Assembly: GCA_017798125.1 (NCBI GenBank)
Contig: CP059070.1
Span: 1,984,001 to 2,048,000, forward strand
Reading direction: 5' to 3'
Source of the DNA: Cryomorphaceae bacterium
GTDB lineage: Bacteria > Bacteroidota > Bacteroidia > Flavobacteriales > ECT2AJA-044
DNA length: 64,000 nt
Position numbers and translations under genes: made by a program. Shown piece after piece: positions 2,451 through 58,567 of the stretch (the first letter of the stretch is position 1; the number at the start of each line of letters is the position of its first letter). The notes under the pieces were generated by a model that made no database searches, had not been told where the DNA came from, and worked only from the letters and a program-made list of their open reading frames with translations.

Positions 2451-3543
2451 CCCTCCATGACTCTCCTCGAAGTAAGTATCTTAAAGACTTCATCCATAGT
2501 TTTTTAGCATCATTAATTGAAACTGATGCTTGAACATATTCTCCTTCTGTTTTTTCTGCCGAGTAATCGAAGAAGTCCAAGGCTTCACGCATGGATAGTT
2601 CAGGTATTCCGTAAACGGACGCAAAACGAGGATCTATTAGGGTGTTTAAGGACCCCTCAAAGAGATCCTGAGCCTTGTTGCTCACTTTTCGGTTGTTGGC
2701 GTTTTGAACGCTTTTATCGTCTCCGGTGGACCAAGTGGATATTCTTTTGACTTGCTTTCGGTACGGATTTTCCTCGTAAGATTTGCGCAGATCTTCTGCT
2801 GTTATATGATGAGGACTACAAAGCATGTTCAGTAATGCGCTTACCCTTGGAAAAGGATCGCCAACCAGATCTTCATATTTGACAAGGTGTACTCGGGGAT
2901 GTTCCCGGAAATTCCAATACAGGGCAACGTTTACCAGCCATGTGGCAGATGCAGTATACGGCCCCCATCCGCGGCGAAGCAGGCTATCGAGGACATACAA
3001 GGGGTGGCGAACCGTATAGATGAAGTGATGATCCGGATGAGTATCGAGCCAAAGATCAATGGCGTTCGCGTTTTGAGGCGTTTTCTCGAAGACCATCCCG
3101 TTTTTAGGCTTCTTCCGAAAGGCTAGAAAGCCGCGGGCAAAATCCTGAATCCAGGCGTTCAAATCGGGTGCCTCTTTAAAGCTATTGTTGAACTCGGTGT
3201 GGGACAATCCATAACCCGGAAGATGGTCGTATCGCGTGTGGATTCCGGTGGCCTTCAGTGTGGCAATATTGCTGGTGCGTTTGGGGTTGCGCTGAAATCG
3301 GCTGAAGTCGTAAAGCTCTCGATTGCAAAACAACTCCAATTCAGGGCCGCATGCCGCGAAAGGAGCGCTGTCGAGAAGATCGGCCAGTAGCGTGCTGCCC
3401 GAACTTGGCGAGTTGCCCAGAAGTATCAGTTGTTGTCTATCTTCACCCACGAAATCCAAAAGTAGAGAATTGGCCCTTACCCGTAATGCGAATCTGGTGA
3501 ATACCGCTCTGTCCTTTGCAGGGGCGGGCTTGGGCTTTGTCAA
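2410..3543 (-). CDS. Sulfotransferase family protein
   Basis: A PAPS-dependent sulfotransferase-like protein. The 5'-phosphosulfate-binding loop is visible as GNSPSSGSTLLADLLDSAP and a 3'-phosphate-binding segment as YTVRHPLYVLDSLLRRGWG. The product would transfer sulfate from PAPS to a glycan or other hydroxyl, or be a structural relative. The ATG at 3543 lies inside the oppositely oriented flippase gene. An internal GTG at MGEDRQQLILLGN (about 3453) would remove the overlap, because the conserved domain begins right after it. The head-to-head flippase suggests a role in decorating an exported polysaccharide, but this is inference. The 3' end overlaps pdeM. Confidence 0.8.
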   Translation of the reverse strand: MTKPKPAPAKDRAVFTRFALRVRANSLLLDFVGEDRQQLILLGNSPSSGSTLLADLLDSAPFAACGPELELFCNRELYDFSRFQRNPKRTSNIATLKATGIHTRYDHLPGYGLSHTEFNNSFKEAPDLNAWIQDFARGFLAFRKKPKNGMVFEKTPQNANAIDLWLDTHPDHHFIYTVRHPLYVLDSLLRRGWGPYTASATWLVNVALYWNFREHPRVHLVKYEDLVGDPFPRVSALLNMLCSPHHITAEDLRKSYEENPYRKQVKRISTWSTGDDKSVQNANNRKVSNKAQDLFEGSLNTLIDPRFASVYGIPELSMREALDFFDYSAEKTEGEYVQASVSINDAKKLWMKSLRYLLRGESWRVSQAHHRAVIQKK

Positions 3544-4939: not shown

Positions 4940-4955
4940 TTTTGTGGGAGTGGGC

Positions 4956-5441
4956 TTATTTGCCTAGCCAAGAACGAAGCATCCAGTGATCCTTTTCCAT
5001 GTCCTTGGTATATTCCTGAAGGAGGGTAACGGTACCCGTGTCTCCGTTGTTTGCCGCGATTTCCGTGGCTTCCACAAAGTAGCCGAGCATTTCTTCGAAA
5101 TCAGCCAAGATCTCACTGGCCATTTCTCGTGATTCCGTATTTGGTGATGCCTCGGCAATGCTTGCGTGCTCCAGATAATCACTGAAATTGCTCAGTGGCG
5201 TACCGCCAAAAATGCGAATACGTTCTGCGATTTCATCAATGTGCTCAACCGCTTTGGTGTAGTACACTTCGAAGTTCTCATGCAAGTCGAAAAAATCATC
5301 GCCAACAACGTTCCAGTGAAAGTTGCGAAGCTTTTGGTAGTGCATTTGATAGTTCGCGAGTACGGCATTTAGGCCGCCAATAATGGCATTGCTTTCTTCA
5401 GAGTTAAAGCCGAGACGGTTGCTGGTTGATGTATTCATCAC
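4956..5441 (-). CDS. dps: Dps family ferritin-like DNA-protecting protein
   Basis: 161 residues, the normal length for Dps. The ferroxidase signature is clear: the segment LRNFHWNVVGDDFFDLHENF followed by helix VEHIDEIAERIRIFGG matches the inter-subunit iron site of Dps (His in HWNV, Asp/Glu in DLHENFE). Dps dodecamers store iron, consume hydrogen peroxide and may coat DNA in stress. It is a single gene, convergent with the flippase, and separated from its upstream neighbour by 135 bases in which no clear promoter was recognised. Confidence 0.93.
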   Translation of the reverse strand: MMNTSTSNRLGFNSEESNAIIGGLNAVLANYQMHYQKLRNFHWNVVGDDFFDLHENFEVYYTKAVEHIDEIAERIRIFGGTPLSNFSDYLEHASIAEASPNTESREMASEILADFEEMLGYFVEATEIAANNGDTGTVTLLQEYTKDMEKDHWMLRSWLGK

Positions 5442-5576
5442 ATATCGTGTTTTAAAGATTATGGATTCAGTTTTAACGCTCTACGAAGGTCGTGATTCTT
5501 TGGGGTTGTGCCATAGAAAAATCATTATGATATCCAATCAAGTATAGGTAATCTCAATATAGCTTCTTCTATTAAC

Positions 5577-5990
5577 TCAAGGTAGGCAACTCCCTTTGGC
5601 GGTCCACCAGGGGTGAAGCTCCATGACGAGTCTTCCGGCCTGAATCATGGGGTCCATGGATTCTAGTTCGCGTGCTTCCTCAACTGTTCCAACGTCAAAA
5701 ATGATTATGCCTCGGAGGTCGGTGTCGTCTCCCATGGGGCCCACCATGGCAATCTTTCCTTCCTCGGCGAGGCGATTGAAATGGGCGAGGTGACCTTCTT
5801 GTAAAGTGGCGGCCGTGGCGGAATCATGATCGCGATTCGGCCCGGCTTTCAGCAGGCAAAGGACGTAGCTTTTCATGATGTAGGTAGTGTCGCCTTCCTC
5901 GAGTTCGAATTCACGAGGAGGCTGCTGGGCCATCGCGCCGTAGGCGCAAAACATAAAAAGTAGGAGTGTGGTTAGTAGCTTCATATCCAA
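5577..5990 (-). CDS. Exported YciI-like protein
   Basis: 137 residues. Residues 1-21 form a signal peptide (hydrophobic core LLTTLLLFMFCAYGAMA, cleavage before QQPP). The mature part matches the YCII domain: a ferredoxin-like fold with the segment HLAHFNRLAEEGKIAMVGPMGDDTD and a GIIIFDV strand. Function of the family is mostly unknown; some members are dehalogenase- or isomerase-like. The stretch coding the signal peptide contains a perfect member of the short palindrome family (5931-5952), giving the residues CAYGAMA. Confidence 0.8.
   Translation of the reverse strand: MDMKLLTTLLLFMFCAYGAMAQQPPREFELEEGDTTYIMKSYVLCLLKAGPNRDHDSATAATLQEGHLAHFNRLAEEGKIAMVGPMGDDTDLRGIIIFDVGTVEEARELESMDPMIQAGRLVMELHPWWTAKGSCLP
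5931..5952 (+). repeat. Short palindrome family, copy 1 (C:G stem variant)
   Basis: CATCG-C-GCC-GTA-GGC-G-CAAAA. A 5-bp stem GCGCC/GGCGC with a 3-nt loop and conserved flanks CATC and CAAAA. It lies inside the coding region for a signal peptide on the opposite strand. See the finding on this repeat family. Confidence 0.7.
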
Positions 5991-6029
5991 GGCTTCAGAT
6001 TTTAGAGAAAATTCGAATATTATTGCAAC

Positions 6030-6662
6030 ATGAGCAACGAGATTGAAGAGATCTTTCCGACCCTGAACGACGAAGAGCTGCGCGAGCAGTTAAGGAATGA
6101 ATGCACCGTTCGGCAGATTCCTGCCGGAACGACGCTAATGGAAATGGGCCAATATGTCAAGGCGATTCCCTTGATTACATCGGGCCGTGTGAAGGTATTC
6201 CGAGAAGACGATGATGGGCACGAGCTTTTCTTGTACTATTTGGAACCCGGAGAAGGTTGCGCCATGAGCTTCGCTTGCACGCTTCACGACCAAACCTCGC
6301 AGGTGAAGGCTGTTGCCATGGAGGATACAGAGTTTATTTCCGTTCCCGTCACCTTGATGCCGGAATGGATGAGTAGGTTTAAATCGTGGTATCGCTTTGT
6401 GATTGAAACCTATCAAGATCGTTTTGAAGAGTTGCTGAAGACCTTGGATAGTATTGCCTTTCATCGAATGGATGAACGTTTGATTCAATATCTGCAGAAA
6501 AACGCTAAGGTATTGGAAACAAAGGTTTTAAAGCTGTCGCATCAAGAGGTGGCCTATGAGCTAAATACCTCGCGGGAGGTGATCTCACGCCTCTTGAAAA
6601 AGATGGAAAAGGACGGCATGGTGCTGCTTGGGCGCAATCGAATTGAGCTCCTGTCTATTTAA
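6030..6662 (+). CDS. Crp/Fnr family transcriptional regulator
   Basis: 210 residues: a cyclic-nucleotide-binding-like beta-barrel (about residues 20-120, with ITSGRVKVFREDDDGHELFLYYLEPGE) and a C-terminal winged helix (LSHQEVAYELNTSREVISRLLKKMEKDG). No cysteine cluster of the Fnr type is seen at the N-terminus, so an iron-sulfur sensor is unlikely. It heads the sulfur island. Four downstream promoters carry a CRP-like palindrome GTRAC-N4-GTYAC at class II activator distance, so this protein is the likely activator, perhaps sensing sulfide, persulfide or redox state. That link is inference. TATTATTG ends four bases before the ATG and may be its -7 element. Confidence 0.9.
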   Translation: MSNEIEEIFPTLNDEELREQLRNECTVRQIPAGTTLMEMGQYVKAIPLITSGRVKVFREDDDGHELFLYYLEPGEGCAMSFACTLHDQTSQVKAVAMEDTEFISVPVTLMPEWMSRFKSWYRFVIETYQDRFEELLKTLDSIAFHRMDERLIQYLQKNAKVLETKVLKLSHQEVAYELNTSREVISRLLKKMEKDGMVLLGRNRIELLSI

Positions 6663-6665
6663 GCC

Positions 6666-6710
6666 GTGACTTTGGTTACTGAGTTCAGGCGTCCGCGAGT
6701 TCTACCTTTG
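6666..6710 (+). promoter_or_regulatory. CRP-like operator plus -7 element for SulP
   Basis: GTGAC-TTTG-GTTAC at 6666-6679, followed by TACCTTTG at 6703-6710, a Bacteroidota -7 element. The palindrome centre is 30.5 bases before the -7 element, which puts it near -42 from the expected start of transcription. No TTG -33 element is present at the usual place, as expected for an activator-dependent promoter. The ATG of the permease follows 18 bases later. Confidence 0.65.
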
Positions 6711-6728
6711 CCGTAAATTAGCGTCGCT

Positions 6729-8459
6729 ATGAACCCCAAGTCCTTTATTCCCATACTCGAATGGTTGCCTCGCTACAAGCGGGAAGACTTGCGCGGTGAC
6801 ATCTCAGCAGGCTTAACCGTGGGAGTAATGCTCATTCCTCAGGGGATGGCGTATTCCATGTTGGCTGGTCTACCACCAATCTACGGACTTTACGCATCAA
6901 CTATCCCACTGATCCTCTACGCGATTTTTGGAACAAGCCGTCAACTGGCGGTGGGTCCGGTGGCTATGGTAGCCCTTCTTATTTCATCCGGGGTAGGAGC
7001 TATTGCGCCTGTGGGTAGCGATGAATTCATCGGATTGGCGATTTTGCTGGCCTTTATGGTTGGGGTGCTTCAGTTTTCCCTGGGATTGTTTCGTTTGGGT
7101 TTTCTGGTCAATTTCTTATCTCATCCCGTCATTTCAGGTTTCACGAGTGCCGCTGCATTAATTATTGGCTTGAGCCAACTCAAGCACCTACTGGGCATTG
7201 ACATTCCTCGTAGCAACTATATTCATGAAATACTGATCAATGCTGGTCAGAACATTCAGCACGTGCACGTGCCCACACTTCTTCTGGGCGTCGTAGCGAT
7301 TGGGCTGATGATTGGCTTAAAGAGAATCAATCGACGCATTCCTGGTCCACTCGTGGTCGTATCCCTTGGAATTGGCCTGGTGTCCCTGTTCAAATGGGAT
7401 CAGGGAGGGATGAAGATCGTCCGAGAAGTGCCGAGCGGATTACCGGACATTCAACTTATGGCGATGGATTGGGCGGCCATAAACCAACTCATGCCTATCG
7501 CGCTGACCATTGCACTGGTCGGGTTCATGGAATCGATTGCCGTAGCCAAGGCCATTCAGGCCAAACACAAGGATTATGAAGTAGTTCCAAACCAGGAGCT
7601 CATTGGCCTCGGTTTGGCCAATATTGGAGGTGCGCTTTTCCAGGCTTTTCCAACAACGGGTGGATTTTCCCGTACCGCGGTAAATGATCAGGCAGGTGCG
7701 CGTACAGGCTTAGCCAGTATCATCAGCGCCGTTCTCATCATTCTGACCTTGCTGTTCCTTACGCCTCTTTTTTACTACTTGCCCAAAGCCATCCTCGCAA
7801 GCATCATTATGGTCGCCGTCTTTGGTCTGATTGATTTTAAAGAGGCCCGGTACTTGTGGCGGACGGACAAGCGCGACTTTGCGATGTTGGCGGTGACCTT
7901 TGGAGCAACCTTGGTCCTGGGTATTGAAGAGGGAATTGGAATTGGTGTTCTGTTGAGCCTCGGGGTTGTGATTCACCGTGTAGCTTATCCACATATGGCT
8001 CGTGAAGGCCAGTTACCGGGTACGCAGAAGTTTCGCAACATTGAACGTTATTCTGAAGTGGAGGACGACCCGGAAATGCTGATTGTGCGATTAGACGCCC
8101 GTCTTTTCTTTGCAAACACCAATTACTTTCTTGATCGGTTGACGCGATGGGAACGAGAGAAATCGAATACCCTGAAGGTGGTCATCCTCAATGCTAAACC
8201 CATCAACGGGTTGGATTCCACCGGAGTGCACACCTTGCATGACATGGCTGAAAGCTATCGAGAACGAGGTATTCAATTCTACATTTGCGGCCTAAAAGGT
8301 CCATTGCGGGATGTCGTTCATCGTTCGGGTTTGGTGGATCAAATTGGAAAGGAGAACTTTTTCTTTGATTTACGTGATGCGGTAAACCACTACCGCGGAG
8401 AGCAAGATCGAGTATCTGCAGAAGTCGTCATGCAAACCAACACCGACGAAAATGCCTAA
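6729..8459 (+). CDS. SulP family anion permease with STAS domain
   Basis: 576 residues. The N-terminal 430 residues hold the SulP transporter core with about 12-14 membrane segments, including the family signature near the start (GLTVGVMLIPQGMAYSMLAG, LPPIYGLYAS). The C-terminus is a STAS domain with the typical NAKPINGLDSTGVHTL segment. SulP proteins move sulfate, bicarbonate or related anions. In this setting it may take up sulfate or release sulfate/sulfite produced by sulfide oxidation; direction and substrate are inferred from neighbours only. The next gene (DUF202) overlaps its end by eight bases. Confidence 0.92.
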   Translation: MNPKSFIPILEWLPRYKREDLRGDISAGLTVGVMLIPQGMAYSMLAGLPPIYGLYASTIPLILYAIFGTSRQLAVGPVAMVALLISSGVGAIAPVGSDEFIGLAILLAFMVGVLQFSLGLFRLGFLVNFLSHPVISGFTSAAALIIGLSQLKHLLGIDIPRSNYIHEILINAGQNIQHVHVPTLLLGVVAIGLMIGLKRINRRIPGPLVVVSLGIGLVSLFKWDQGGMKIVREVPSGLPDIQLMAMDWAAINQLMPIALTIALVGFMESIAVAKAIQAKHKDYEVVPNQELIGLGLANIGGALFQAFPTTGGFSRTAVNDQAGARTGLASIISAVLIILTLLFLTPLFYYLPKAILASIIMVAVFGLIDFKEARYLWRTDKRDFAMLAVTFGATLVLGIEEGIGIGVLLSLGVVIHRVAYPHMAREGQLPGTQKFRNIERYSEVEDDPEMLIVRLDARLFFANTNYFLDRLTRWEREKSNTLKVVILNAKPINGLDSTGVHTLHDMAESYRERGIQFYICGLKGPLRDVVHRSGLVDQIGKENFFFDLRDAVNHYRGEQDRVSAEVVMQTNTDENA

Positions 8460-8766
8460 GAATCCACCTGTACGCGATGATTTAATCCTAAGGGACTACT
8501 TGGCCATTGACCGAACACGTTTAGCCAACCAACGCACGTTATTGTCCTTTTTTAGAAGCGGCTTGTACCTCTTCGTCACTGCCGTGGCCGTGGACAGAGT
8601 TCCCATGTTAGAAGACCTCAAGTGGTTGACCGCAGTCATGTGGGCCTTGGGCGTTGGCGTGATGCTCATTGGACTGATCAATTACCTTTTGATGCGAAGA
8701 AAGATCCTTCGTGCCTATCGCATTAGCGAAGAAGCGGCGGAAAAACTCGCCGAAGAAGACTCCTGA
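8452..8766 (+). CDS. DUF202 (YidH-like) small membrane protein
   Basis: 104 residues. An N-terminal DRTRLANQRTLLSFFRSGLYL segment followed by two to three hydrophobic helices matches the DUF202/YidH family of small inner-membrane proteins of unknown role. It overlaps the SulP gene by eight bases and is surely co-translated. The tight coupling suggests it acts with the permease, but no reaction can be assigned. Confidence 0.8.
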   Translation: MPKNPPVRDDLILRDYLAIDRTRLANQRTLLSFFRSGLYLFVTAVAVDRVPMLEDLKWLTAVMWALGVGVMLIGLINYLLMRRKILRAYRISEEAAEKLAEEDS

Positions 8767-8771
8767 ACATC

Positions 8772-8815
8772 GTAACATTCATCACGTTCAGGTATGATAA
8801 TCATCAGTATTTTTG
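8772..8815 (+). promoter_or_regulatory. CRP-like operator plus -7 element for the first MBL-rhodanese gene
   Basis: GTAAC-ATTC-ATCAC at 8772-8785 (one mismatch to GTRAC-N4-GTYAC) and TATTTTTG at 8808-8815. Centre-to-element distance is 29.5 bases, as at the two sister promoters at 10322 and 11426. The operator sits inside a 7-bp inverted repeat CCTGAAC (8762-8768) / GTTCAGG (8786-8792), which could be a weak terminator of the preceding operon or part of the site. Confidence 0.6.
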
Positions 8816-8846
8816 TACCGTCTTTAGAAGTTAAAGAAGTATTCCT

Positions 8847-10274
8847 ATGAAAATAGAGCAGATATATACCGGGTGCCTTGCTCAAGGTGCCTACTACATA
8901 GAGTCGAACGGAGAAGTAGCGATTATTGATCCGCTTCGCGAAACACAACCTTACCTGGACAAGGCTCAAGCCGAGGGAGGTAAGATCAAATACATTTTTG
9001 AAACCCATTTCCACGCGGATTTCGTGTCTGGACACGTCGATCTCGCCAAGAAAACGGGAGCCACCATCGTTTACGGTCCCGGAGCACAAACCGCCTACGA
9101 TATTCACGCCGCACAAGACGGTGAGGAGTTCACGGTGGGCGCTGTTCGGATTAAAACGTTGCACACTCCGGGACATACTCCGGAAAGCACGACATGGCTC
9201 TTGATCGACGAAGAAGGCGGTAACCACGCGATCTTCAGTGGAGATACGCTGTTTATTGGTGATGTAGGACGTCCTGATCTCGCCGTGAAAAGTGACTTGA
9301 CAGAGCGCGATTTAGCGGGTATGTTGTTCGACAGCCTCCGCAATAAGATCATGCCTCTTGAAGACGAAGTCATCGTCTATCCAGCACATGGAGCGGGTTC
9401 TGCGTGTGGTAAGAACATGAGTAAAGAAACGCATGACTTGCTGGGCAATCAAAAGAAAGTCAATTATGCCCTACGGGCCGATATGACCAAGGAGGAATTC
9501 ATTGACGAATTGCTCGATGGCATCTTACCTCCACCTCAGTACTTCCCCAAAAACGTACAAATGAACAAGGAGGGGTACGCTTCCATCGATACGGTATTGG
9601 AAAAAGGGGTAGTGCCTTTGAATGTCGAGACGTTTGAGGCTCTGGCGAACCACGAAGGTGCACTCGTGCTCGATGTGCGCGGCCCTCAGGACTTTGCCCA
9701 AGGTCATATTCCCAACTCCATTTTCATCGGGATCAATGGATCCTTCGCCGGATGGGTAGGAACGCTCATCACCGATTTGCAACAGCCGATCATTATTGTT
9801 GCTCCCGAAGGTCGTGAGGAAGAGACCGTAACACGATTGGCTCGTGTGGGTTACGACAATACCTTGGGGTATCTGGATGGTGGATTTGCTGCCTGGAAGG
9901 CTGCCGGGAAAGAAACCGATACTGTAGAGTCCATCCCTGCTACGGAGTTTGCTTCGCGCTGGAAGGCAGATACGATTAAGGTGCTCGACGTGCGCAAGCC
10001 AGGAGAGTTTGAAGCTGAGCACATCGACAAAGCGTACAACCGTCCATTGGATTACATCAATGACTTCATGGATGAGTTTGACTCTGAGGAGAAGTACTAC
10101 ATCCACTGTGCTGGAGGGTACCGCTCCATGATTTACGCTTCTATTTTGAAGGCTCGCGGATTTCATGAATTGGTTGACGTGCAAGGCGGCTTCAAAGCCA
10201 TTGCCGAAACGGATATTGAAGTCACAGACTATGTGTGTCCTTCAACCCTGCGCAAAGAGCAGCAAGAAGGATAA
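8847..10274 (+). CDS. MBL-fold persulfide dioxygenase-like protein with two rhodanese domains (copy 1)
   Basis: 475 residues. Residues 1-230 are a metallo-beta-lactamase fold of the ETHE1/Blh/CstB type: THFHADFVSGH, GHTPEST, SGDTLFIGDVGRPDL and YPAHGAGSACGK hold the metal ligands. Then follow two rhodanese domains. The first (DVRGPQDFAQGHIPNS) has no active-site cysteine. The second ends in YIHCAGGYRSM with the catalytic Cys. Family members oxidise glutathione- or other thiol-persulfides to sulfite and pass sulfane sulfur. A close paralog lies at 11499. It is probably cytoplasmic, since no signal peptide is seen, and it is driven from its own CRP-like promoter. Confidence 0.9.
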   Translation: MKIEQIYTGCLAQGAYYIESNGEVAIIDPLRETQPYLDKAQAEGGKIKYIFETHFHADFVSGHVDLAKKTGATIVYGPGAQTAYDIHAAQDGEEFTVGAVRIKTLHTPGHTPESTTWLLIDEEGGNHAIFSGDTLFIGDVGRPDLAVKSDLTERDLAGMLFDSLRNKIMPLEDEVIVYPAHGAGSACGKNMSKETHDLLGNQKKVNYALRADMTKEEFIDELLDGILPPPQYFPKNVQMNKEGYASIDTVLEKGVVPLNVETFEALANHEGALVLDVRGPQDFAQGHIPNSIFIGINGSFAGWVGTLITDLQQPIIIVAPEGREEETVTRLARVGYDNTLGYLDGGFAAWKAAGKETDTVESIPATEFASRWKADTIKVLDVRKPGEFEAEHIDKAYNRPLDYINDFMDEFDSEEKYYIHCAGGYRSMIYASILKARGFHELVDVQGGFKAIAETDIEVTDYVCPSTLRKEQQEG

Positions 10275-10321
10275 ACACTCCTTTTACAGGCATTTTACGG
10301 GCGACATTACTCATCCCTTGT

Positions 10322-10365
10322 GTAACAAAAGTTACGGTCCAACCTGAGGTCTGTATCTACCTTTG
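10322..10365 (+). promoter_or_regulatory. CRP-like operator plus -7 element for the YeeE/YedE pair
   Basis: A perfect palindrome GTAAC-AAAA-GTTAC at 10322-10335 followed by TACCTTTG at 10358-10365. The spacing of 29.5 bases places the centre near -41.5. No -33 TTG is seen. The downstream ATG is 20 bases after the -7 element. This is the best of the four sites in the island. Confidence 0.7.
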
Positions 10366-10385
10366 ATTCATAAAGGCTAGGAGCT

Positions 10386-10952
10386 ATGGAATGGATAACC
10401 GCCCCATGGCCTTGGTACGTCGCAGGGCCTATGATCGCATTGATCATGTTTGTATTACTGGCGTTCGGTAAAGAGTTCGGGTTTAGTGCTAACCTACGCA
10501 CCATGTGTGCGGCAGTAGGAGGAGGGAAGTACGCTTCTTTTTTCAAGTTCAATTGGAAAGGACAGATCTGGAACTTGGTGTTCGCCGTGGGCGCCATTCT
10601 AGGGGGGTATATAGCACACACTTACCTCATGCCCTCGGAGAAAATAAGCTTGAATCCAAAAACGGTTGCAGAGTTGGAAACCTACGGTCTTTCGGCCGCT
10701 GGCGAGCAGTATATTCCGCCCGAATTGTTTGGATGGGATTATCTAGCTACATGGCAGGGTTTTGTCATGATGGTCGTCGGAGGGTTCCTCATCGGCTTTG
10801 GTACGCGCTATGCCGGCGGGTGTACATCGGGCCACGCCATTTCGGGTTTGAGTAATCTACAATGGCCCTCGCTGTTAGCGGTGATCGGTTTCTTCATTGG
10901 AGGGTTGCTCATGACCTATTTAGGGCTCCCTTTCTTATTACCAGGTCAATAA
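10386..10952 (+). CDS. YeeE/YedE family half-transporter (PmpA-like)
   Basis: 188 residues with about five membrane helices. Conserved cysteines appear in LRTMCAAVGGG and in the family signature GTRYAGGCTSGHAISG. YeeE/YedE proteins such as TsuA import thiosulfate through a row of cysteines. Half-size members work in pairs (PmpA/PmpB). The following gene encodes the matching second half 16 bases downstream. Together they probably move a sulfur compound (thiosulfate, polysulfide or persulfide) across the inner membrane; the substrate is inferred. Confidence 0.88.
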   Translation: MEWITAPWPWYVAGPMIALIMFVLLAFGKEFGFSANLRTMCAAVGGGKYASFFKFNWKGQIWNLVFAVGAILGGYIAHTYLMPSEKISLNPKTVAELETYGLSAAGEQYIPPELFGWDYLATWQGFVMMVVGGFLIGFGTRYAGGCTSGHAISGLSNLQWPSLLAVIGFFIGGLLMTYLGLPFLLPGQ

Positions 10953-10968
10953 CCACAAACGGAAGGTC

Positions 10969-11382
10969 ATGAAATACTTTAGGTTCTTACTTATCGGGGT
11001 CGTATTCGGAGTGGTTTTGACCAAAGCCGAAGTCATTTCTTGGTATCGGATATATGAAATGTTCCGCTTCCAGTCCTTCCATATGTATGGAGTCATTGGC
11101 TCTGCGGTGGTTGTGGGCATTGGACTCGTTTGGCTGATCAAGAAATACGACATCCATCCCTGGTACGGCGAAGAGATGATGCTTTTTGATAAGCAGCCCA
11201 GCGTACCTAGATACTTATACGGCGGAATTCTCTTTGGACTTGGATGGGCGATGACTGGAGCGTGCCCAGGCCCTATGTTTATTCTTCTCGGCTATGGCGT
11301 GCCCGTTATTGCGGTCGTCATTTTGAGTGCTCTGCTGGGCACCTTCGTCTACGGGCTGGTTCGGGACAAAATCCCGCACTAA
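10969..11382 (+). CDS. YeeE/YedE family half-transporter (PmpB-like, DUF6691)
   Basis: 137 residues with about four membrane helices and the second-half signature GWAMTGACPGPMFILLGYG, whose cysteine corresponds to the one in GGCTSGH of the first half. It follows the PmpA-like gene by 16 bases and ends just before the promoter of the second MBL-rhodanese gene. The two halves most likely form one channel. Confidence 0.85.
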   Translation: MKYFRFLLIGVVFGVVLTKAEVISWYRIYEMFRFQSFHMYGVIGSAVVVGIGLVWLIKKYDIHPWYGEEMMLFDKQPSVPRYLYGGILFGLGWAMTGACPGPMFILLGYGVPVIAVVILSALLGTFVYGLVRDKIPH

Positions 11383-11425
11383 ACACATCGATCAGTTCTT
11401 CAGCTGATAAAGATCAGTTTTGAAT

Positions 11426-11469
11426 GTGACTATTGCCACGTTTAAAGCGTGGAGCACCGGCTACTTTTG
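11426..11469 (+). promoter_or_regulatory. CRP-like operator plus -7 element for the second MBL-rhodanese gene
   Basis: GTGAC-TATT-GCCAC at 11426-11439 (one mismatch to GTRAC-N4-GTYAC) and TACTTTTG at 11462-11469, again 29.5 bases from centre to element. Because this promoter lies between the upstream ATG at 11433 and the conserved ATG at 11499, it supports 11499 as the real start of the gene. Confidence 0.6.
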
Positions 11470-11498
11470 AAAGAGTAGAAAAATCAACGATTCAGAAA

Positions 11499-12908
11499 AT
11501 GAAAATTGAACAGATATATACCGGGTGTTTGGCGGAAGCCGCTTACTATATTGAGTCAAATGGAGAGGTGGCGATTGTAGATCCACTCCGCGAAACGCAA
11601 CCTTATATTGACCGTGCAGAAAAGGACGGTGCGCAGATCAAATACGTTTTAGAAACGCATTTTCATGCCGACTTTGTATCGGGGCATTTAGATTTGGCAA
11701 AGCGCACAGGCGCTAAGATTGTCTTTGGGCCTACCGCTCAGCCATCATATGAGGCGCACGTGGCCGAGGACGGCGAAGTGCTGACCCTTGGAGATATTCA
11801 AATCAAGGTTTTGCATACACCTGGGCACACCATGGAGTCGACGACCTTTTTGGTTATCGATGCCGAAGGGAAGGAGCACTCCATATTTACTGGGGACACG
11901 CTTTTTATCGGGGATGTAGGACGGCCTGACTTGGCCGTGAAAACAGATCTCAGTCGCGAGGATCTGGCTGGGCATCTCTTTGACTCCTTGCGGACGAAGA
12001 TAATGACCTTGCCGGGAGATGTCATTGTGTATCCTGGTCATGGAGCTGGCTCCGCTTGCGGTAAGAAGATGAGCGATGAAACGGTCGATACGCTTGCGCA
12101 TCAATTGGAAACGAATTATGCCCTACGGGCCGATATGACCCGTCAGGAATTCATCGAAGAAGTAACGGATGGTCTTGTGACGCCTCCACAGTACTTCCCT
12201 AAGAATGCCGTGCTGAATAAAACCGGATACGAGTCTTTCGAACAGGTTATGGACCGCGGACTACAGCCACTCTCTGTGGACGATTTTTTGAAATCCGCTG
12301 AATTGACCGATGCCCTCATCTTAGATACGCGCACGCCGGACGATTTTCGAGATGGTCATATTCCGGGTTCCATTTTTATTGGAATTGACGGGAGTTTTGC
12401 CACTTGGGTCGGAACGCTAATTACGGACTTAAAACAACCGATGCTCATCGTTGCTGATCCAGGCCGAGAGGAGGAAGTGGTCACGCGCTTGAGTCGTGTG
12501 GGATACGACAATGCTCTTGGGTATCTAGGAGGTGGATTTGAGCAGTGGGTGGCATCGGGCCGTGAGGCCCAAAAAGTAGCCCAAGTAAGCGCTGCTGAAC
12601 TCAAAGAGTCCATAAATGAGCCTGGAACCGAGGTTCTCGATGTGCGCAAGAAAAGCGAGTTTGACAGTCAGCATATTGAAGGGGTTCGGAACCTTCCGCT
12701 CGACTTTTTGAATGAGCATATGAATGAATTGGATAAAGATACTTTGCGTTATGTGCATTGTGCTGGTGGGTACCGGAGTATGGTATTCATCAGTATTCTT
12801 CAGGCCCGTGGCTATCAGCATTTGGTAGACGTGGCTGGAGGTTTTAAGGCCATTGAGGAAGAAGGCTTCCCGATGACCGAATATGTTTGCCCTTCCACGA
12901 TGCTTTAA
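11499..12908 (+). CDS. MBL-fold persulfide dioxygenase-like protein with two rhodanese domains (copy 2)
   Basis: 469 residues and collinear with the protein at 8847 over its whole length, clearly a paralog. The same metal motifs (THFHADFVSGH, TGDTLFIGDVGRPDL, YPGHGAGSACGK) are present. The first rhodanese domain has no catalytic Cys and the second ends in YVHCAGGYRSM. I chose the start at MKIEQIYTGCL because copy 1 begins identically and a promoter lies just upstream; an in-frame ATG at 11433 is discounted. Differences between the copies are spread evenly, so specialisation for different persulfides or redox states is possible but unproven. A short palindrome repeat (12553-12576) lies within the coding region. 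Confidence 0.9.
   Translation: MKIEQIYTGCLAEAAYYIESNGEVAIVDPLRETQPYIDRAEKDGAQIKYVLETHFHADFVSGHLDLAKRTGAKIVFGPTAQPSYEAHVAEDGEVLTLGDIQIKVLHTPGHTMESTTFLVIDAEGKEHSIFTGDTLFIGDVGRPDLAVKTDLSREDLAGHLFDSLRTKIMTLPGDVIVYPGHGAGSACGKKMSDETVDTLAHQLETNYALRADMTRQEFIEEVTDGLVTPPQYFPKNAVLNKTGYESFEQVMDRGLQPLSVDDFLKSAELTDALILDTRTPDDFRDGHIPGSIFIGIDGSFATWVGTLITDLKQPMLIVADPGREEEVVTRLSRVGYDNALGYLGGGFEQWVASGREAQKVAQVSAAELKESINEPGTEVLDVRKKSEFDSQHIEGVRNLPLDFLNEHMNELDKDTLRYVHCAGGYRSMVFISILQARGYQHLVDVAGGFKAIEEEGFPMTEYVCPSTML
12553..12576 (+). repeat. Short palindrome family, copy in MBL-rhodanese 2 (G:C variant)
   Basis: CATCG-G-GCC-GTGA-GGC-C-CAAAA, a 5-bp stem with a 4-nt loop, encoding ASGREAQK in the sense strand. 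The paralog at 8847 has the same protein length here but not this DNA sequence, so it arose by substitution or conversion rather than by insertion. Confidence 0.65.
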
Positions 12909-12930
12909 GCATCGAGTAGGTTCATAGCGT

Positions 12931-12960
12931 GTCCCGGGATTCAGGGGTGGATCCCGGGAC
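12931..12960. terminator. Perfect 10-bp inverted repeat between MBL-rhodanese 2 and the SQR-like gene
   Basis: GTCCCGGGAT, a 10-base loop, then ATCCCGGGAC. The stem is very stable, but it is followed by TATTTTCG rather than a T-tract, so it may be a weak terminator, an mRNA-stabilising hairpin that separates expression of the two genes, or a protein site. Confidence 0.5.
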
Positions 12961-13027
12961 TATTTTCGACCCCTCGAAACGCTGAGAACAAGAGGCAGCT
13001 TTGATTTATGAACTTAAACCAAACGCT

Positions 13028-14278
13028 ATGAAAAGCCATCAAATCGTCATTATTGGAGGAGGAACCGCCGGAATCACGGTGGCCGCTCAATTGATGCGTA
13101 AGAACAAAAATCTCGACATCGCCCTTATTGAGCCCTCAGAAAAGCACTACTACCAGCCGGCATGGACCTTGGTTGGGGCTGGAACTTATGATATGGCAAA
13201 GACCGAGCGCGATGAGGCAGGGTTAATCCCACCAGGTGTTCGATGGATTAAAGAATACGCCGAAGAACTGAACCCGGATGAGAATAAGGTCGTCTTGCGG
13301 AGCGGTGAGGAGGTTGGATATGAGTTCTTAGTAGTGGCGCCGGGAATTCAAATGGATGTGGATGGTATTGAAGGGCTGGCGGAGACCTTGGGTAAAAATA
13401 ATGTTTGCTCCAACTACATTGATCCGGAATACACTTGGGAAATTCTTCAAAACTGGAAAGGGGGGAAGGCTCTTTTTACTCAGCCGGCCACACCGATTAA
13501 GTGTGGTGGGGCACCCATGAAGATTATGTTTTTGGCGGCCCACAACTTCCGCAAGAACAACCTGCATGCTCAAAGCGAAATCACTTTTGCTTCCCCTGGG
13601 AGCATCATTTTTGGGGTGAAGGAGTTCGCTATCACTCTGGAAAAGGTCGTAGAACGTTACGATATCGATACGCGGTTTCATCACAAGTTGATCAAGGTCG
13701 ACGGTGAGCGAAAAGTGGCGACATATGAGGTTGTGAAATACGATAACACAGGTTGTATGGTGTTGTCTGATCAAGGTGAGCCTGTAAAATCTGTTGAAGA
13801 GATTGAGTTTGACATGCTTCATTTGGCACCGCCGCAAAGTGCGCCTGATTTCATCAAAAGATCCAAACTGGCGCATCAAACTGGCGCCAACAAGGGATGG
13901 ATGAATGTGGATATTCATTCGCTTCAAAATCCAGACTACAGCAATGTTTTTGGATTAGGTGATGCGGCGGCCCTTCCTACAGCCAAAACGGGTGCTGGGG
14001 TTCGGAAACAAGCTCCCGTAGTCGTGGACAACATCTTAAACATGATCGAAGGAAGGCACGCACATAACTTGGGCTATACAGGATACAGCTCATGTCCGTT
14101 GGTGACTGGCTACGGCAGAATGGTGCTTGCCGAGTTCGGTTATGAGAACAAGAGAATGAGTGACCCTATGATCTCCACCTTTGTGGATACAACCAAAGAA
14201 CAGTGGAGCATGTGGATGCTTAAAAAATACGGACTTCCCTTTATGTATTGGGATTTAATGCTGAAAGGGAAAGCGTAA
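13028..14278 (+). CDS. Sulfide:quinone oxidoreductase-like flavoprotein
   Basis: 416 residues of the FCSD/SQR family. The FAD-binding GGGTAGITVAAQL is at residues 10-22, and a second nucleotide-facing segment GLGDAAALPTAKTGAGVRKQAP is near 309-330. Three candidate redox cysteines are C127 (NVCSNY), C159 (IKCGGAP) and C356 (YSSCPLVTG); the last two match the pair used by SQR to hold the polysulfide bridge. SQR oxidises sulfide at the membrane face, passes electrons to quinone and hands sulfane sulfur to a thiol, giving the persulfide that the MBL-rhodanese proteins would use. I chose the ATG at 13028 because it directly precedes the Rossmann motif. Confidence 0.88.
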   Translation: MKSHQIVIIGGGTAGITVAAQLMRKNKNLDIALIEPSEKHYYQPAWTLVGAGTYDMAKTERDEAGLIPPGVRWIKEYAEELNPDENKVVLRSGEEVGYEFLVVAPGIQMDVDGIEGLAETLGKNNVCSNYIDPEYTWEILQNWKGGKALFTQPATPIKCGGAPMKIMFLAAHNFRKNNLHAQSEITFASPGSIIFGVKEFAITLEKVVERYDIDTRFHHKLIKVDGERKVATYEVVKYDNTGCMVLSDQGEPVKSVEEIEFDMLHLAPPQSAPDFIKRSKLAHQTGANKGWMNVDIHSLQNPDYSNVFGLGDAAALPTAKTGAGVRKQAPVVVDNILNMIEGRHAHNLGYTGYSSCPLVTGYGRMVLAEFGYENKRMSDPMISTFVDTTKEQWSMWMLKKYGLPFMYWDLMLKGKA

Positions 14279-14297
14279 CAGCAGGTTGAGGTAAAAG

Positions 14298-14330
14298 TGA
14301 AAAGCCCCATTTTGATGGGGCTTTTTTTTA
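14298..14330. terminator. Bidirectional terminator
   Basis: AAAGCCCCAT, loop, ATGGGGCTTT with an A-run before and a T-run after. It serves the SQR-like gene on the plus strand and the cysteine-dioxygenase-like gene on the minus strand, whose stop codon lies inside the T-run. Confidence 0.85.
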
Positions 14331-14852
14331 TTCCCGTACGGGGTCGCTCCAGACACTCATGGAATGAACCCTTTTGTTTTCTTCATCATAAACCTGCCAA
14401 GTCTCGATGGGTAGGCTGTAAATATGCAGGCTGATCGTTCGGCGATCCACACAATTAAAGCCGCGGTGGAAACCAATGTAATCGTTCAGGTATGGAATGG
14501 ACTTTTCGGGTAGCCTCGTGCTTTCAATCAGTTTGAGCTGATTTTCCAGCATAGAGGTAAAGTACTGTTCAATACAGAGCTCGCCTTGTAGAATGTACAT
14601 CCAACCTTCTTGATAATCATAGGTGTGAATAGGGGAGGTTTGATGAGGTTCCCAGCACATGAGTAGCAGTTCGCAATCATTGTTGCGAAAAAGCGGTATT
14701 CGAGTGTAATGATCGTCACTCCAAGTGCACAGCGGAAGCACTTCCTTTTCTAAATCCAGCTGGACCCGCTTTAGGATGCCCATATACCCATCCTGATCTG
14801 GGCCTTTGGCCAGTTCTTCTCTCAATTGATCGATGGTGGTTATCGGGTTCAT
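14328..14852 (-). CDS. Cysteine dioxygenase-like cupin protein
   Basis: 174 residues with the cysteine dioxygenase fold pattern: LLLMCWEPHQTSPIHTYDY, then YILQGEL, GFHRGFN and SLHIYSLPI. H76 and H129 match two of the three iron ligands of CDO. The second His of the usual HDH motif is Tyr here (H76-T-Y78), and the position of the crosslink Cys is Trp84, while the crosslink Tyr (Y145) is kept. The enzyme would oxidise cysteine or another thiol to a sulfinate, but the altered site makes activity uncertain. The start at 14852 (MNPITTIDQL) is preferred over an upstream ATG at 14903. It lies convergent to the sulfur island and may belong to it. Confidence 0.8.
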   Translation of the reverse strand: MNPITTIDQLREELAKGPDQDGYMGILKRVQLDLEKEVLPLCTWSDDHYTRIPLFRNNDCELLLMCWEPHQTSPIHTYDYQEGWMYILQGELCIEQYFTSMLENQLKLIESTRLPEKSIPYLNDYIGFHRGFNCVDRRTISLHIYSLPIETWQVYDEENKRVHSMSVWSDPVRE

Positions 14853-15053
14853 GGTGTCTTTTCTGGATATACCTAAAGTTCCGAAAAAATGTCCAGAAAC
14901 CATGAATATGGAAACAGCTAATCTATCCGGTCGTTAGATAGGGGTGAATAGATAATTTGTTGATAAAAATTGAACTAAACCCCTTTTGATCGAGGGTTAT
15001 AAATGTAAAAGTTGAATAAATTAGCTCTTCATAACTAAAATATAGGGGGTAAA

Positions 15054-16370
15054 ATGGAAAAGAAGAATAAATTAGTGTCTCGAGGAATGTTCTTCATTTT
15101 GGTTGTAGTGGCCATTGTAGCAAGTGTATATCCAGCGAGCCATCCTGAGTCAACCCGTGATTGGGATTCTGGAACGATCGCATGGCTGCTCACTGCGGCT
15201 GGATTAGTGCTCATTATGACACCTGGACTGAGCTTCTTCTATGGAGGAATGGTTCGGGCAAAGAACGTTGTGAGTACCATGCTGCAGAGTTTTATCGCTC
15301 TTGGGGTTGTCAGTATTTTCTGGTACGCATTTGGATTTAGTCTAGCCTTTGGGGATAGTATTGGTGGTTGGATTGGTAATCCCTTGAGTTTCGCTTTCTT
15401 CAACGACGTTGGCACTGCCGCTCATCCTCGAATTGCTTCGGGAATACCCTTCATTCTTTTCGCGGCGTTCCAGCTCAAATTTGCCATAATCACTCCAGCG
15501 CTGTTCACTGGTTCCATGGCGGAGCGTCTTCAGTTTTGGAGTTATGTAGTGATGATGGTGCTTTTCTCATTGCTGGTATACTGTCCATTGGCTCATTGGA
15601 CCTGGCATCCCGATGGAGTCCTTTACACCCATGGAGTGCTGGACTTCGCCGGCGGAACAGTTGTTCACATAAGCGCCGGAATCATGGCCTTGGTTGGCGC
15701 ATGGTACTTAGGGCCACGTAAGGTGAAGGAGTTGGTAGATCCATCCGAAATCAATGTGCCTTACGTCATTCTCGGTACCGGATTACTGTGGTTCGGTTGG
15801 TTTGGTTTCAATGCAGGTTCAGCCTTAGCTGCAGATTCGCTTGCTGTCAAGGCTTTTGTCAATACGCATTTCGCCTCTGCGGCCGCCATGATTGGTTGGG
15901 TGCTGTACGATGTTATGATGGGTAGAAAGCCTACGGCTCTTGGTGCTTGTATCGGCGCAGTGGTGGGGCTCGTCGCCATTACACCTGCTGCGGGATTCGT
16001 GAGTTATGGGCCTTCGTTAATTATAGGTTTGTCTGCTGCACTCGTTTCAAATGTCGTAGTGGAACGCTTTAAAAGATCTAGTGTGGACGATACCCTGGAT
16101 GTGTTTGCCTGCCATGGACTCGGAGGTATGATTGGAATGCTCTTAACGGGCGTGTACGCCGAAGAAGGGGGATGGGTGACCACTGGTAATCCAACCTTGT
16201 TTTTAAAACACCTAGGAGCACTGGTCTTTGTCGTTGTGTTTGTGGGAGTTAGCTCGTACATAATTCTTCGTGTCGTAGATCGAATGATACCCATGCGTGT
16301 CTCAGACTCGGAAGAAAAAGAGGGTCTCGATCGAGCTATTCACGGAGAAGCTATTCTGAAAACAGCTTAG
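15054..16370 (+). CDS. amt: Ammonium transporter (Amt family)
   Basis: 438 residues with about 11-12 membrane segments. The conserved pore residues are present: the first pore His in GGTVVHISAG and the second in FACHGLGGMIGMLLTG, and the signature FFYGGMVRAKNVVS is near residue 62. It moves ammonium/ammonia into the cell. No GlnK/PII gene is adjacent. The 200 bases upstream are AT-rich and probably hold the promoter, but I could not pick a convincing one. Confidence 0.95.
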   Translation: MEKKNKLVSRGMFFILVVVAIVASVYPASHPESTRDWDSGTIAWLLTAAGLVLIMTPGLSFFYGGMVRAKNVVSTMLQSFIALGVVSIFWYAFGFSLAFGDSIGGWIGNPLSFAFFNDVGTAAHPRIASGIPFILFAAFQLKFAIITPALFTGSMAERLQFWSYVVMMVLFSLLVYCPLAHWTWHPDGVLYTHGVLDFAGGTVVHISAGIMALVGAWYLGPRKVKELVDPSEINVPYVILGTGLLWFGWFGFNAGSALAADSLAVKAFVNTHFASAAAMIGWVLYDVMMGRKPTALGACIGAVVGLVAITPAAGFVSYGPSLIIGLSAALVSNVVVERFKRSSVDDTLDVFACHGLGGMIGMLLTGVYAEEGGWVTTGNPTLFLKHLGALVFVVVFVGVSSYIILRVVDRMIPMRVSDSEEKEGLDRAIHGEAILKTA

Positions 16371-16381
16371 TGCTCGTTGTG

Positions 16382-16403
16382 CATCGTGCCTTAGGCACAA
16401 ATA
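16382..16403 (+). repeat. Short palindrome family, intergenic copy (T:A variant)
   Basis: CATCG-T-GCC-TTA-GGC-A-CAAAT just after the amt stop codon and at the outer edge of the tRNA-Met element. The stem is 5 bp (GTGCC/GGCAC) with a 3-nt loop. Confidence 0.65.
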
Positions 16404-16407
16404 GAAT

Positions 16408-16440
16408 AAAAAAGGTCCTGCTGAAATGCGGGACCTTTAT
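16408..16440 (+). terminator. Terminator after amt, formed by the distal copy of the tRNA-Met repeat
   Basis: A-run, then AGGTCC..GGGACCT with mismatched loop, then TTTAT. This hairpin resembles the one directly downstream of tRNA-Met and overlaps the duplicated segment 16427-16460. Confidence 0.6.
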
Positions 16441-16460
16441 TGACTTGTAGCGAGAGAGAG
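16427..16460 (-). repeat. Distal copy of a 34-nt direct repeat: tRNA-Met 3' end plus terminator arm
   Basis: Identical to 16603-16636. It includes the last 13 bases of tRNA-Met (discriminator plus acceptor 3' strand and some T-arm) and the flanking terminator arm. The tRNA body is absent here. The spacer between the copies is 142 bases. Confidence 0.9.
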
Positions 16461-16602
16461 CGTTAGCTCCCGATGGTCGCTGAGTGGGAGGGGAGGCATT
16501 ACAGATCAAAAAAAGCTTCACTTCGTTCAGCACATTTTGCATTACCCCACTCGCTAAAGCAAGCTTTGCTCGGGGCTAAATGCAAAAAAAGTCCCGCAAT
16601 TC
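16461..16602 (-). other. Structured spacer of the tRNA-Met downstream element
   Basis: 142 bases without a credible gene. It holds a hairpin with arms TTTTGCATTA..CCCC / GGGG..TAAATGCAAAA (16535-16587) whose apex carries AGCAAGCT (16558-16565), and a CTTCG-type hairpin (16515-16531). The same two modules, in the same order relative to the tRNA, occur by tRNA-Arg and tRNA-Ser. Confidence 0.7.
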
Positions 16603-16612
16603 TGCGGGACCT
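16584..16612 (-). terminator. Terminator of tRNA-Met
   Basis: On the minus strand: AAGGTCCCGCAGAATTGCGGGACTTTTTTTGC, a 7-bp GC-rich stem with a T-run, starting about 12 bases after the tRNA 3' end. Confidence 0.8.
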
Positions 16613-16636
16613 TTATTGACTTGTAGCGAGAGAGAG
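16603..16636 (-). repeat. Proximal copy of the 34-nt direct repeat, overlapping the tRNA-Met 3' end
   Basis: Perfectly matches 16427-16460, 176 bases away, and runs 13 bases into the tRNA gene. See the finding on duplicated tRNA 3' ends. Confidence 0.9.
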
Positions 16637-16697
16637 ACTTGAACTCTCGACCTCCGGGTTATGAATCCGACGCTCTAACCAGCTGAGCTACCTCGCC
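16624..16697 (-). tRNA. tRNA-Met (CAT anticodon)
   Basis: 74 bases. Acceptor GGCGAGG pairs with TCTCGCT, the D-arm is GCTC..GAGC, the anticodon loop is TTCATAA, and the T-loop TTCAAGT is canonical. The first acceptor pair is G:U-like (G1:T72) and the anticodon stem lacks the three G:C pairs of initiators, so this is an elongator Met or possibly a CAT-Ile(lysidine) species. No CCA is encoded. Confidence 0.93.
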
Positions 16698-16715
16698 TTG
16701 CGATTTTTGAGGGTG

Positions 16716-48423: not shown

Positions 48424-48511
<88 letters not shown>

Positions 48512-48512
<1 letters not shown>

Positions 48513-48631
48513 CAAGAAAGAAACCCGTGCACGCGCACGGGTTTTTTTTGTTGGGCGGACGCCAAGCTTGCTTGTGTGGACGACTAACAAAAAGACAGAA
48601 TGTTGCTTCGCAACTTCGGTTTCTTTCTTGC
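48512..48631 (+). repeat. tRNA-Ser downstream element with terminal 14-nt inverted repeat
   Basis: GCAAGAAAGAAACC (48512-48525, including the tRNA discriminator) reappears inverted as GGTTTCTTTCTTGC (48618-48631). Between them lie the terminator (48521-48549), a TTTTTGTT-armed hairpin (48545-48593) carrying AGCTTGCT, the complement of AGCAAGCT, and GTTGC-TTC-GCAAC (48602-48614). The order of modules away from the tRNA is the same as at tRNA-Met and tRNA-Arg. No gene is seen between 48632 and 48694. Confidence 0.75.
48521..48549 (+). terminator. Terminator of tRNA-Ser
   Basis: AACCCGTGC, loop, GCACGGGTT and a run of eight T, starting nine bases after the tRNA. Confidence 0.88.
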
Positions 48632-48694
48632 TGGTTCCCCCACCTGGGATCACCACCCGGTAATCCCGTTCATTCTCTTGAAGATAATGTTGGC

Positions 48695-58265: not shown

Positions 58266-58323
58266 AAAAACGGATGGCTACTGCCATCCGCTGTTTGCTT
58301 GTTCTAGTGATCCCTACAGGATT
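58266..58323 (-). repeat. Distal copy of a 58-nt perfect direct repeat: tRNA-Arg 3' end plus terminator
   Basis: Identical to 58452-58509. On the minus strand it begins with the last 16 bases of tRNA-Arg, continues through the flank and ends with the terminator hairpin. The tRNA body is absent. It lies two bases after the S9 peptidase stop and may act as its terminator. Confidence 0.93.
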
Positions 58324-58451
58324 TTGCCCCTCACGATGCTCGGGGCAAGAATAGGCGGGCTGATCACTATTGCGAGCAAACAGCTCGCTTCGCTCGTATT
58401 TTGTTGTCTAGCCTCTGCCCAGAGCAAGCTCGACCTGAATCTAGAGCACAA
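58324..58451 (-). other. Structured spacer of the tRNA-Arg downstream element
   Basis: 128 bases between the two repeats with no credible gene. It contains GCGAGC-aaaca-GCTCGC (58372-58388) followed by CTTCGCTCG, and a hairpin with arms TTTTGTTGTCTAG (58399-58411) / CTAGAGCACAAAA (58441-58453) with AGCAAGCT (58423-58430) near its apex. A longer-loop variant of the CATCG palindrome (GCCCC..GGGGC) lies at 58325-58345. Confidence 0.7.
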
Positions 58452-58476
58452 AAAAACGGATGGCTACTGCCATCCG
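58450..58476 (-). terminator. Terminator of tRNA-Arg
   Basis: On the minus strand CGGATGGCAGTAGCCATCCG followed by a run of seven T. It starts about 18 bases after the tRNA 3' end and is part of the duplicated segment. Confidence 0.85.
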
Positions 58477-58509
58477 CTGTTTGCTTGTTCTAGTGATCCC
58501 TACAGGATT
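58452..58509 (-). repeat. Proximal copy of the 58-nt direct repeat, overlapping the tRNA-Arg 3' end
   Basis: Perfect match to 58266-58323, offset 186 bases. It covers the terminator, the flank and the last 16 bases of the tRNA. Confidence 0.93.
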
Positions 58510-58567
58510 CGAACCTGTGACCGTCTGCTTAGAAGGCAGATGCTCTATCCAGCTGAGCTAAGGGACC
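58494..58567 (-). tRNA. tRNA-Arg (TCT anticodon)
   Basis: 74 bases. Acceptor GGTCCCT pairs with AGGGATC (one G:T), the D-arm is GCTC..GAGC, the anticodon stem CTGCC/AGCAG frames the loop with TCT, and the T-loop TTCGAAT is canonical. No CCA is encoded. It reads AGA codons. Confidence 0.95.

Follow-up and report, generated by a model that had tools for sequence, protein, structure and literature searches.

A folding element of about 175 nt lies behind many tRNA genes of Bacteroidota and has apparently not been described before. It seems able to insert, to repeat itself and sometimes to frame imported genes, including a CRISPR locus. In the window, i.e. the whole 64-kb stretch of DNA that was analysed, four tRNA genes are present (Met and Arg on the − strand, Ser and Pro on the + strand), and copies of the element stand behind those for Met, Arg and Ser. 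An earlier note on the window had described a terminator and hairpin order common to these three spacers. This was confirmed when the spacers were read in tRNA sense, in which all three run through a trailer arm (A), a terminator hairpin (T), a hairpin with the apex AAGCTTGCTT (H2), a third hairpin (H3) and an arm complementary to the trailer (A’):

48424..48513, + strand: tRNA-Ser(GCT) gene, preceding the Ser copy (ARAGORN, Rfam RF00005)
48512..48525, + strand: arm A of the Ser copy (the tRNA trailer), which supplies the 5’ strand of the closing helix and forms a perfect inverted repeat of 14 nt with 48618-48631
48524..48541, + strand: terminator hairpin T of the Ser copy, CCCGTGC-ACGC-GCACGGG, then a T-tract at 48542-48549 (fold, direct reading)
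48543..48595, + strand: hairpin H2 of the Ser copy, apex AAGCTTGCTT at 48564-48573 (covariance-model match 48539-48599, 54.5 bits; pair covariation)
48602..48614, + strand: hairpin H3 of the Ser copy, GTTGC-TTC-GCAAC (fold)
48618..48631, + strand: arm A’ of the Ser copy, 3’ strand of the closing helix (inverted repeat; family-wide A/A’ complementarity, permutation 0/2000)
48637..48641, + strand: C-run of the Ser copy, between A’ and the right-end hairpin (direct reading; enriched family-wide)
48646..48667, + strand: right-end T-arm-like hairpin of the Ser copy, GGGATC-ACCACCCGG-TAATCCC (direct reading; kept in the same-genus orthologue L055)
16623..16697, − strand: tRNA-Met(CAT) gene
16502..16623, − strand: Met copy (H2 model match 16531-16591, 52.6 bits; fold)
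16608-16623, 16591-16610 and 16535-16590, − strand: arm A, terminator and H2 (apex 16558-16565) of the Met copy
16515-16532 and 16502-16518, − strand: H3 and arm A’ (decayed) of the Met copy
16408..16460, − strand: remnant of the tRNA-Met 3’ end following the Met copy, with older trailer and terminator; repeats 16584-16636 directly (53 nt, 87%)
58493..58567, − strand: tRNA-Arg(TCT) gene
58362..58498, − strand: Arg copy (H2 model match, 51.5 bits; inverted repeat)
58476-58498 and 58457-58476, − strand: arm A (reaching into the tRNA 3’ end) and terminator of the Arg copy
58396-58456, 58384-58397 and 58362-58384, − strand: H2 (apex 58423-58430), H3 and arm A’ of the Arg copy
58355-58361 and 58319-58348, − strand: C-rich stretch and T-arm-like hairpin TTGCCCC..GGGGCAA + AATCC at the right end of the Arg copy (direct reading)
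58266..58323, − strand: tRNA-Arg 3’-end remnant with trailer and terminator, behind the Arg copy; equals 58452-58509 (58/58 nt)

The Ser copy extends as a whole over 48512-48667, past 48631, and the T-tract of its H2 pairs with the A-tract behind the hairpin. Its 14-nt inverted flank is perfect, as had been noted, but is not peculiar to Ser: the Arg copy has inverted arms too (58476-58498 with 58362-58384; 23 nt, 83%), those of the Met copy have decayed, and such arms are the rule, being present at most copies in the genome. The direct repeats at Met and Arg, with which the flank at Ser had been contrasted, are a separate feature, in which the tRNA 3’ end, trailer and terminator occur once more, further downstream. 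The right part of the Met remnant is the same in the congener locus L326. The third hairpin, described as CTTCG/CGAAG, is present, although a hairpin with a C(GNA)G loop is the more apt description. The window contains the 8-mer AGCAAGCT at exactly three places, 16558 (+), 48565 (−, as complement) and 58423 (+); these are precisely the positions reported, all of them inside the tRNA spacers. This count is ordinary by itself (1.93 expected; three or more reached in 32 of 100 shuffles).

The three elements of the window belong to a family of 11 copies in this genome of 2.84 Mb, of which ten follow tRNAs and one follows tmRNA. Reading the 3’ sides of the tRNA genes (36 by Rfam) revealed the full architecture behind ten of them: Met (twice), Arg-TCT, Asp, Ala, Val-TAC, Pro-GGG, Leu-CAA, Leu-TAG and Ser-GCT. 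The tRNA-Pro(TGG) of the window lacks the element, as had been stated, but the tRNA-Pro(GGG) elsewhere in the genome carries a copy (L019). A covariance model (R1), built without tRNA sequence from only the T-tract and H2 of the ten own-genome copies, recovered these training copies and one new match behind tmRNA; no further place in the genome fell below E = 0.001. The element is thus carried by 11 of 37 tRNA/tmRNA genes, and a further, degraded copy lies behind tRNA-Gln (L029). Behind some own-genome tRNAs without the element (L017, L021, L026, L028), dispersed intergenic short hairpins with C(GNA)G loops were observed (GCGCCGTAGGCGC, GTGCCGTAGGCAC, GGGCCGCAGGCCC), which may form a repeat family of their own.

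Outside this genome, R1 found 13 matches among 39 relatives of the same order, 11 directly behind intact tRNA genes and two (L046, L051) behind broken tRNA ends. The model search was positive in 39 of 296 genomes of the order. The genome-wide statistics rest on such searches, run as the earlier note had proposed. After removal of opposite-strand shadows, 103 distinct matches (ten of them the training copies) were obtained in the 86 loci searched, and 81 of these start 18–43 nt 3’ of a tRNA or tmRNA on the same strand. Eleven lie 60–600 nt behind one and are mostly tandem copies, and the last 11 have no tRNA or tmRNA within 600 nt. Seven of the latter (L046, L051, L069, L080, L084, L102, L109) follow truncated tRNA/tmRNA 3’ ends, and L062, at a contig end, equals a copy behind tRNA-Ser.

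At the level of the phylum, a second model search (R2) was positive in 6 of 395, an underestimate caused by a too strict cut-off. A pattern scan of approximately 85,000 species returned at least 119 stretches. Among the matches listed, 95 of 125 lie 23–40 nt behind a tRNA or tmRNA, and almost every title points to Bacteroidota (Flavobacteriia, Bacteroidales, Chitinophagia, Cytophagia, Saprospiraceae). The other titles among the matches listed were Blautia, Bdellovibrionales, Nitrospinaceae, Acidobacteria, SAR86, an Osedax symbiont and bins labelled Comamonas and Euryarchaeota. All but the bins have neither a tRNA end nor a convincing fold; the Comamonas (L234) and Euryarchaeota (L251) bins are not among the tRNA-less pattern matches. 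Cultured hosts include Robiginitalea marina (14 matches), Gilvibacter sediminis (9), Niastella soli (9), Cryomorpha ignava (5) and Leptobacterium flavescens (4). The viral collection IMG/VR gave 37 pattern matches, mostly unstructured, of which only L259, at a prophage edge, is clearly genuine. About ten IMG/VR contigs (L254, L262, L264, L266, L267, L274, L277, L282, L284, L289) share a conserved TTTTTTGGGG(G)TAATAAAAAGCTCGCTTAAGCGAGCTGGGTTGAGAGCAATAAAAAA that matched the pattern and is not tRNA-linked.

The element folds as a cloverleaf: arm A at the tRNA end, the terminator hairpin, H2, H3 with its C(GNA)G loop, and arm A’. The order is nearly symmetric (A, T, T-tract, H2, A-tract, H3, A’). 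In an alignment of 82 copies, which was fitted to the model and therefore leans towards the structure, 90.1% of cells were paired (63.9% in shuffles) and both-side changes occurred at 17 of the 19 H2 pairs, with 378 such cells against 110. The A/A’ helix lies outside the model. When the first 18 trailer nucleotides were compared with the segment behind H2, the mean complementarity was 10.2 within elements versus 5.6 between elements (permutation 0/2000, n = 68). Compensatory changes also keep the structure between orthologues (Ser, Leu-TAG). Covariation and enrichment next to tRNAs, the absence of which the earlier note had named as evidence against its idea, were thus both found; a chance frequency of the 8-mer, named alongside them, did hold but is immaterial, since the model search and the pair statistics exclude chance for the structure. 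In locus L330 (tRNA-Leu TAG of the congener G001), the H2 apex GAGCAAGCTC is the inversion of GAGCTTGCTC in this genome's orthologous copy, as if the palindrome tip had flipped.

The loops differ between the strands. Compared with the opposite strand, the tRNA-sense strand had GNRA loops in the T hairpin 49 times versus 0 and GNA loops in H3 52 times versus 3, and apex loops were CTTG/CTCG 67 times versus CAAG 0 times. This asymmetry indicates that it is the tRNA-sense strand which folds, be it as RNA or as single-stranded DNA. Unlike the terminator hairpins, H3 favours GNA triloops over GNRA tetraloops, which may hint weakly at DNA. Two further features are enriched on the right side: CCCCC behind A’ in 38 of 175 copies (approximately 9 in shuffles) and a right-end T-arm-like hairpin, GGNTC..ARTCY, in 61 of 175 (4 in shuffles). 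No function could be tied to either.

The unit measures about 165–190 bp, typically 175 bp. Tandem units of 171–183 bp begin exactly at AATCC; behind tRNA-Val of genome G066, for example, three units of 171–173 bp each start with AATCCC, on the 3’ side of the T-loop, and end with GGGATCGCGAAGC. The units lie in the 3’ part of a tRNA or tmRNA gene, which is restored, and an older tRNA tail with its terminator is still found behind the element at Arg, Met and Asp. The duplicated tRNA 3’ end amounts to 58/58 nt at Arg, 53 nt (87%) at Met and 22 nt at Asp; at Met and Arg, the direct repeat is what remains of the old tRNA end behind the insertion. Such a far-side repeat was also seen at Pro and Ser of Niastella; in most copies it has decayed to the T-stem strand. 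In many arrays only the 3’ half recurs, from just behind the H2 apex (e.g. about seven copies behind tRNA-Pro in G104); breakage at the palindrome tip followed by repair, or palindrome-driven slippage, could be their source.

Copies are gained and lost within the genus and recur as identical units at distant sites. This genome and its congener G001 share copies at Ser, Met and Leu-TAG, the Val-TAC copy is reduced to the right-end hairpin in G001, and both genomes have private copies at other tRNAs; as G001 is a draft assembly, gaps may account for some of the absences (Ala shows N). A block of 202 bp in Niastella soli, reaching from TTCGAATCC in tRNA-Pro to ..CCCGACTAA, recurs with 100% identity 7.7 kb away, flanked at the two sites by different sequences both upstream and downstream. 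The stretch between the two holds a single gene, which encodes a 1910-aa TIG/FG-GAP protein with a type IX sorting tail. Two further copies, 180 bp long and likewise 100% identical, stand on either side of a CRISPR-Cas locus with an array and Cas6, Cas7, Cas3, Cas4 and Cas1 (L371, G642:C27:675500-693500, 1054-16700), which suggests tRNA-linked transfer of CRISPR-Cas. In G041, copies frame a 6.1-kb stretch with a degraded integrase (N-terminal fragment) and a matrixin-like type IX protein. Small type IX-secreted proteins that are homologous to each other were also seen between copies behind tRNA-Met at L095 (1777-2655) and L075 (1730-2416), in one genus or close genera (G154 g55, G277 g55).

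Family, position, covarying structure and tRNA-end repeats are all observed. The tandem copies, the within-genus gain and loss, and the identical copies with different flanks framing cargo lead us to infer a non-autonomous element that inserts at the tRNA T-loop, and we lean, with modest confidence, towards a Bacteroidota-wide family of such small elements entering tRNA and tmRNA 3’ ends. The unit would begin on the 3’ side of the T-loop (AATCC...) with a tRNA 3’ end that replaces the old one, continue with arm A, the terminator, H2, H3, A’ and the C-run, and close with the T-arm-like hairpin (GGATC..hairpin..TAATCC). The replacement end and the terminator would keep the tRNA gene working, whilst the old end would stay behind as a remnant. 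Insertion may proceed by site-specific recombination in the T-loop, with a recombinase acting in trans that presumably recognises the folded tRNA-sense strand, and larger cassettes may use the same route. The idea of a structured RNA or self-copying DNA element at tRNA 3’ ends, put forward in the earlier note, is supported as far as copying as a unit is concerned; the folded strand may work either as RNA or as single-stranded DNA.

Several observations speak against the mobile element. The sequences of copies at different tRNAs are completely different, which gives no support to movement from one tRNA type to another; arrays of the 3’ half only are not explained by simple insertion of units; and no insertion was observed between near-identical strains. 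No recombinase for the element was identified in the copy-bearing genomes examined. No integrase of its own was found inside or beside the unit, and the ~175-bp units carry no gene. Several copy-bearing genomes (G177, G154, G265, G197) have two PF00589 genes only, of about XerC/XerD length; a dedicated tyrosine integrase as the mover is thus not universal. This genome encodes four PF00589 tyrosine recombinases: XerD, an XerC-like protein, an XerA-like protein of 415 aa and a distant one. The XerA-like gene (L124 853-2669; 2599589-2601405 in its own genome) is directly followed by two small ORFs resembling a toxin-antitoxin pair. Y1_Tnp was found neither in this genome (G000) nor in G177, G154, G197, G166, G104 and G066; G265 had one weak match with an internal stop, and G041 and G115 had the domain. 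It is possible, though doubtful, that the copies belong to a phylum-wide, integron-like cassette system of Bacteroidota. The T-loop would then be the entry site and the folded element a single-stranded DNA recombination site, and cargo such as type IX-secreted proteins and the CRISPR-Cas locus would be stacked behind tRNAs by a recombinase not yet recognised, possibly the host XerC/XerD.

A cis function as terminator or trailer structure would likewise conserve the fold. We consider it a possible but rather improbable alternative that the element is a cis-acting RNA or terminator module, made of opposed terminators (T on the tRNA strand, H3 and the A-tract on the other) with a closing helix that begins at the 3’ end of the tRNA. 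It would block transcription from both sides and fold read-through tRNA precursors for processing or discard, and the arrays and remnants would be by-products of DNA slippage. The tRNA's terminator lies inside each copy and the A/A’ helix starts at the tRNA end, and the compensatory changes between orthologues and the loop asymmetry agree with this explanation, CUUG being a stable RNA tetraloop. However, only 11 of the 37 tRNA/tmRNA genes carry the element here and the set of carriers varies within the genus; a copying step is needed to explain the tRNA ends in duplicate, the units that are identical but differently flanked, and the framed cargo; and the triloop preference of H3 does not resemble that of terminator hairpins. 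Since a mobile unit must carry a terminator, terminator function is expected for the mobile element as well, and the two explanations overlap.

It is unlikely that the element is the end piece, or attachment-site module, of larger tRNA-integrating islands or prophages, with solo copies as scars after deletion of the rest. Copies do frame islands of 6.1 kb (the one with the integrase fragment), 7.7 kb and 15.5 kb, in G166, G250 and G066 a truncated tRNA with the element has a divergent integrase at a distance of about 1 kb, and the IMG/VR prophage end at L259 carries the element. Yet most copies are solo, ~175 bp long and preserved at both ends, no integrase is among the ORFs listed inside the Niastella islands, and the different tails behind each Niastella copy make the unit discrete from the island. 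Local formation, in which template switching at the terminator hairpin inverts a trailer copy that palindrome instability then multiplies, with no dedicated mobility, is very improbable: A’ mirrors the local trailer, arm A and terminator at Arg exactly equal the old copy and the 3’-half arrays start at the palindrome tip, but apex, C-run and right-end hairpin are common to unrelated tRNAs across the phylum and identical units occur at two distant sites.

tRNA genes are classic entry points for foreign DNA. If mobile, the element would be a very small discrete integrating unit and a handle on how CRISPR-Cas or type IX-secreted protein cargo comes to lie behind tRNA genes; if an RNA, it would be an undescribed family covering tRNA and tmRNA 3’ ends. 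The covariance model lets others annotate it, and it is directly testable in cultured Robiginitalea marina, Gilvibacter sediminis and Niastella soli. The literature search, limited to open-access papers, found no description of the element and no account of any conserved folded element that follows many of the tRNA genes throughout a phylum.

The element shares features with several known systems. Like structured non-coding RNAs in Rfam, it has a conserved secondary structure with covariation. At gathering score, Rfam 15 returned no family but the tRNAs and tmRNA themselves, with low-scoring matches only below threshold, and a known RNA family or self-cleaving ribozyme was rejected with nothing convincing at gathering or relaxed thresholds. 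REP/BIME sequences moved by RAYT (Y1) transposases are short palindromic repeats as well; the element differs in its strict tRNA linkage and in that Y1_Tnp is missing from most copy-bearing genomes tested, and identity with REP/RAYT was rejected as the transposase is not universal. With integron cassettes and their attC sites it has in common that the sites are palindromic and folded, that arrays stand behind a single fixed site with cargo between the sites, and that the cassettes contain no recombinase; the loop strand asymmetry is only suggestive of folded single-strand recombination as at attC. The fixed site is attI in integrons and the tRNA T-loop here; the attC core RYYYAAC..GTTRRRY occurred in 0 of 175 copies on either strand, so that by core motif the element is not an attC site, and the best score of the four PF00589 recombinases of this genome with the integron integrase model NCBIfam TIGR02249 was 196.8 (cut-off 265). 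Islands, prophages and tycheposons that use tyrosine recombinases likewise insert at the tRNA 3’ end, regenerate the tRNA and leave a direct repeat of its 3’ end, whereas the element is only ~175 bp long, has no integrase gene, keeps a conserved three-hairpin core and forms tandem arrays. Although it lacks their integrase, we class the element with those that integrate at tRNA 3’ ends, on account of its insertion position and direct repeats.
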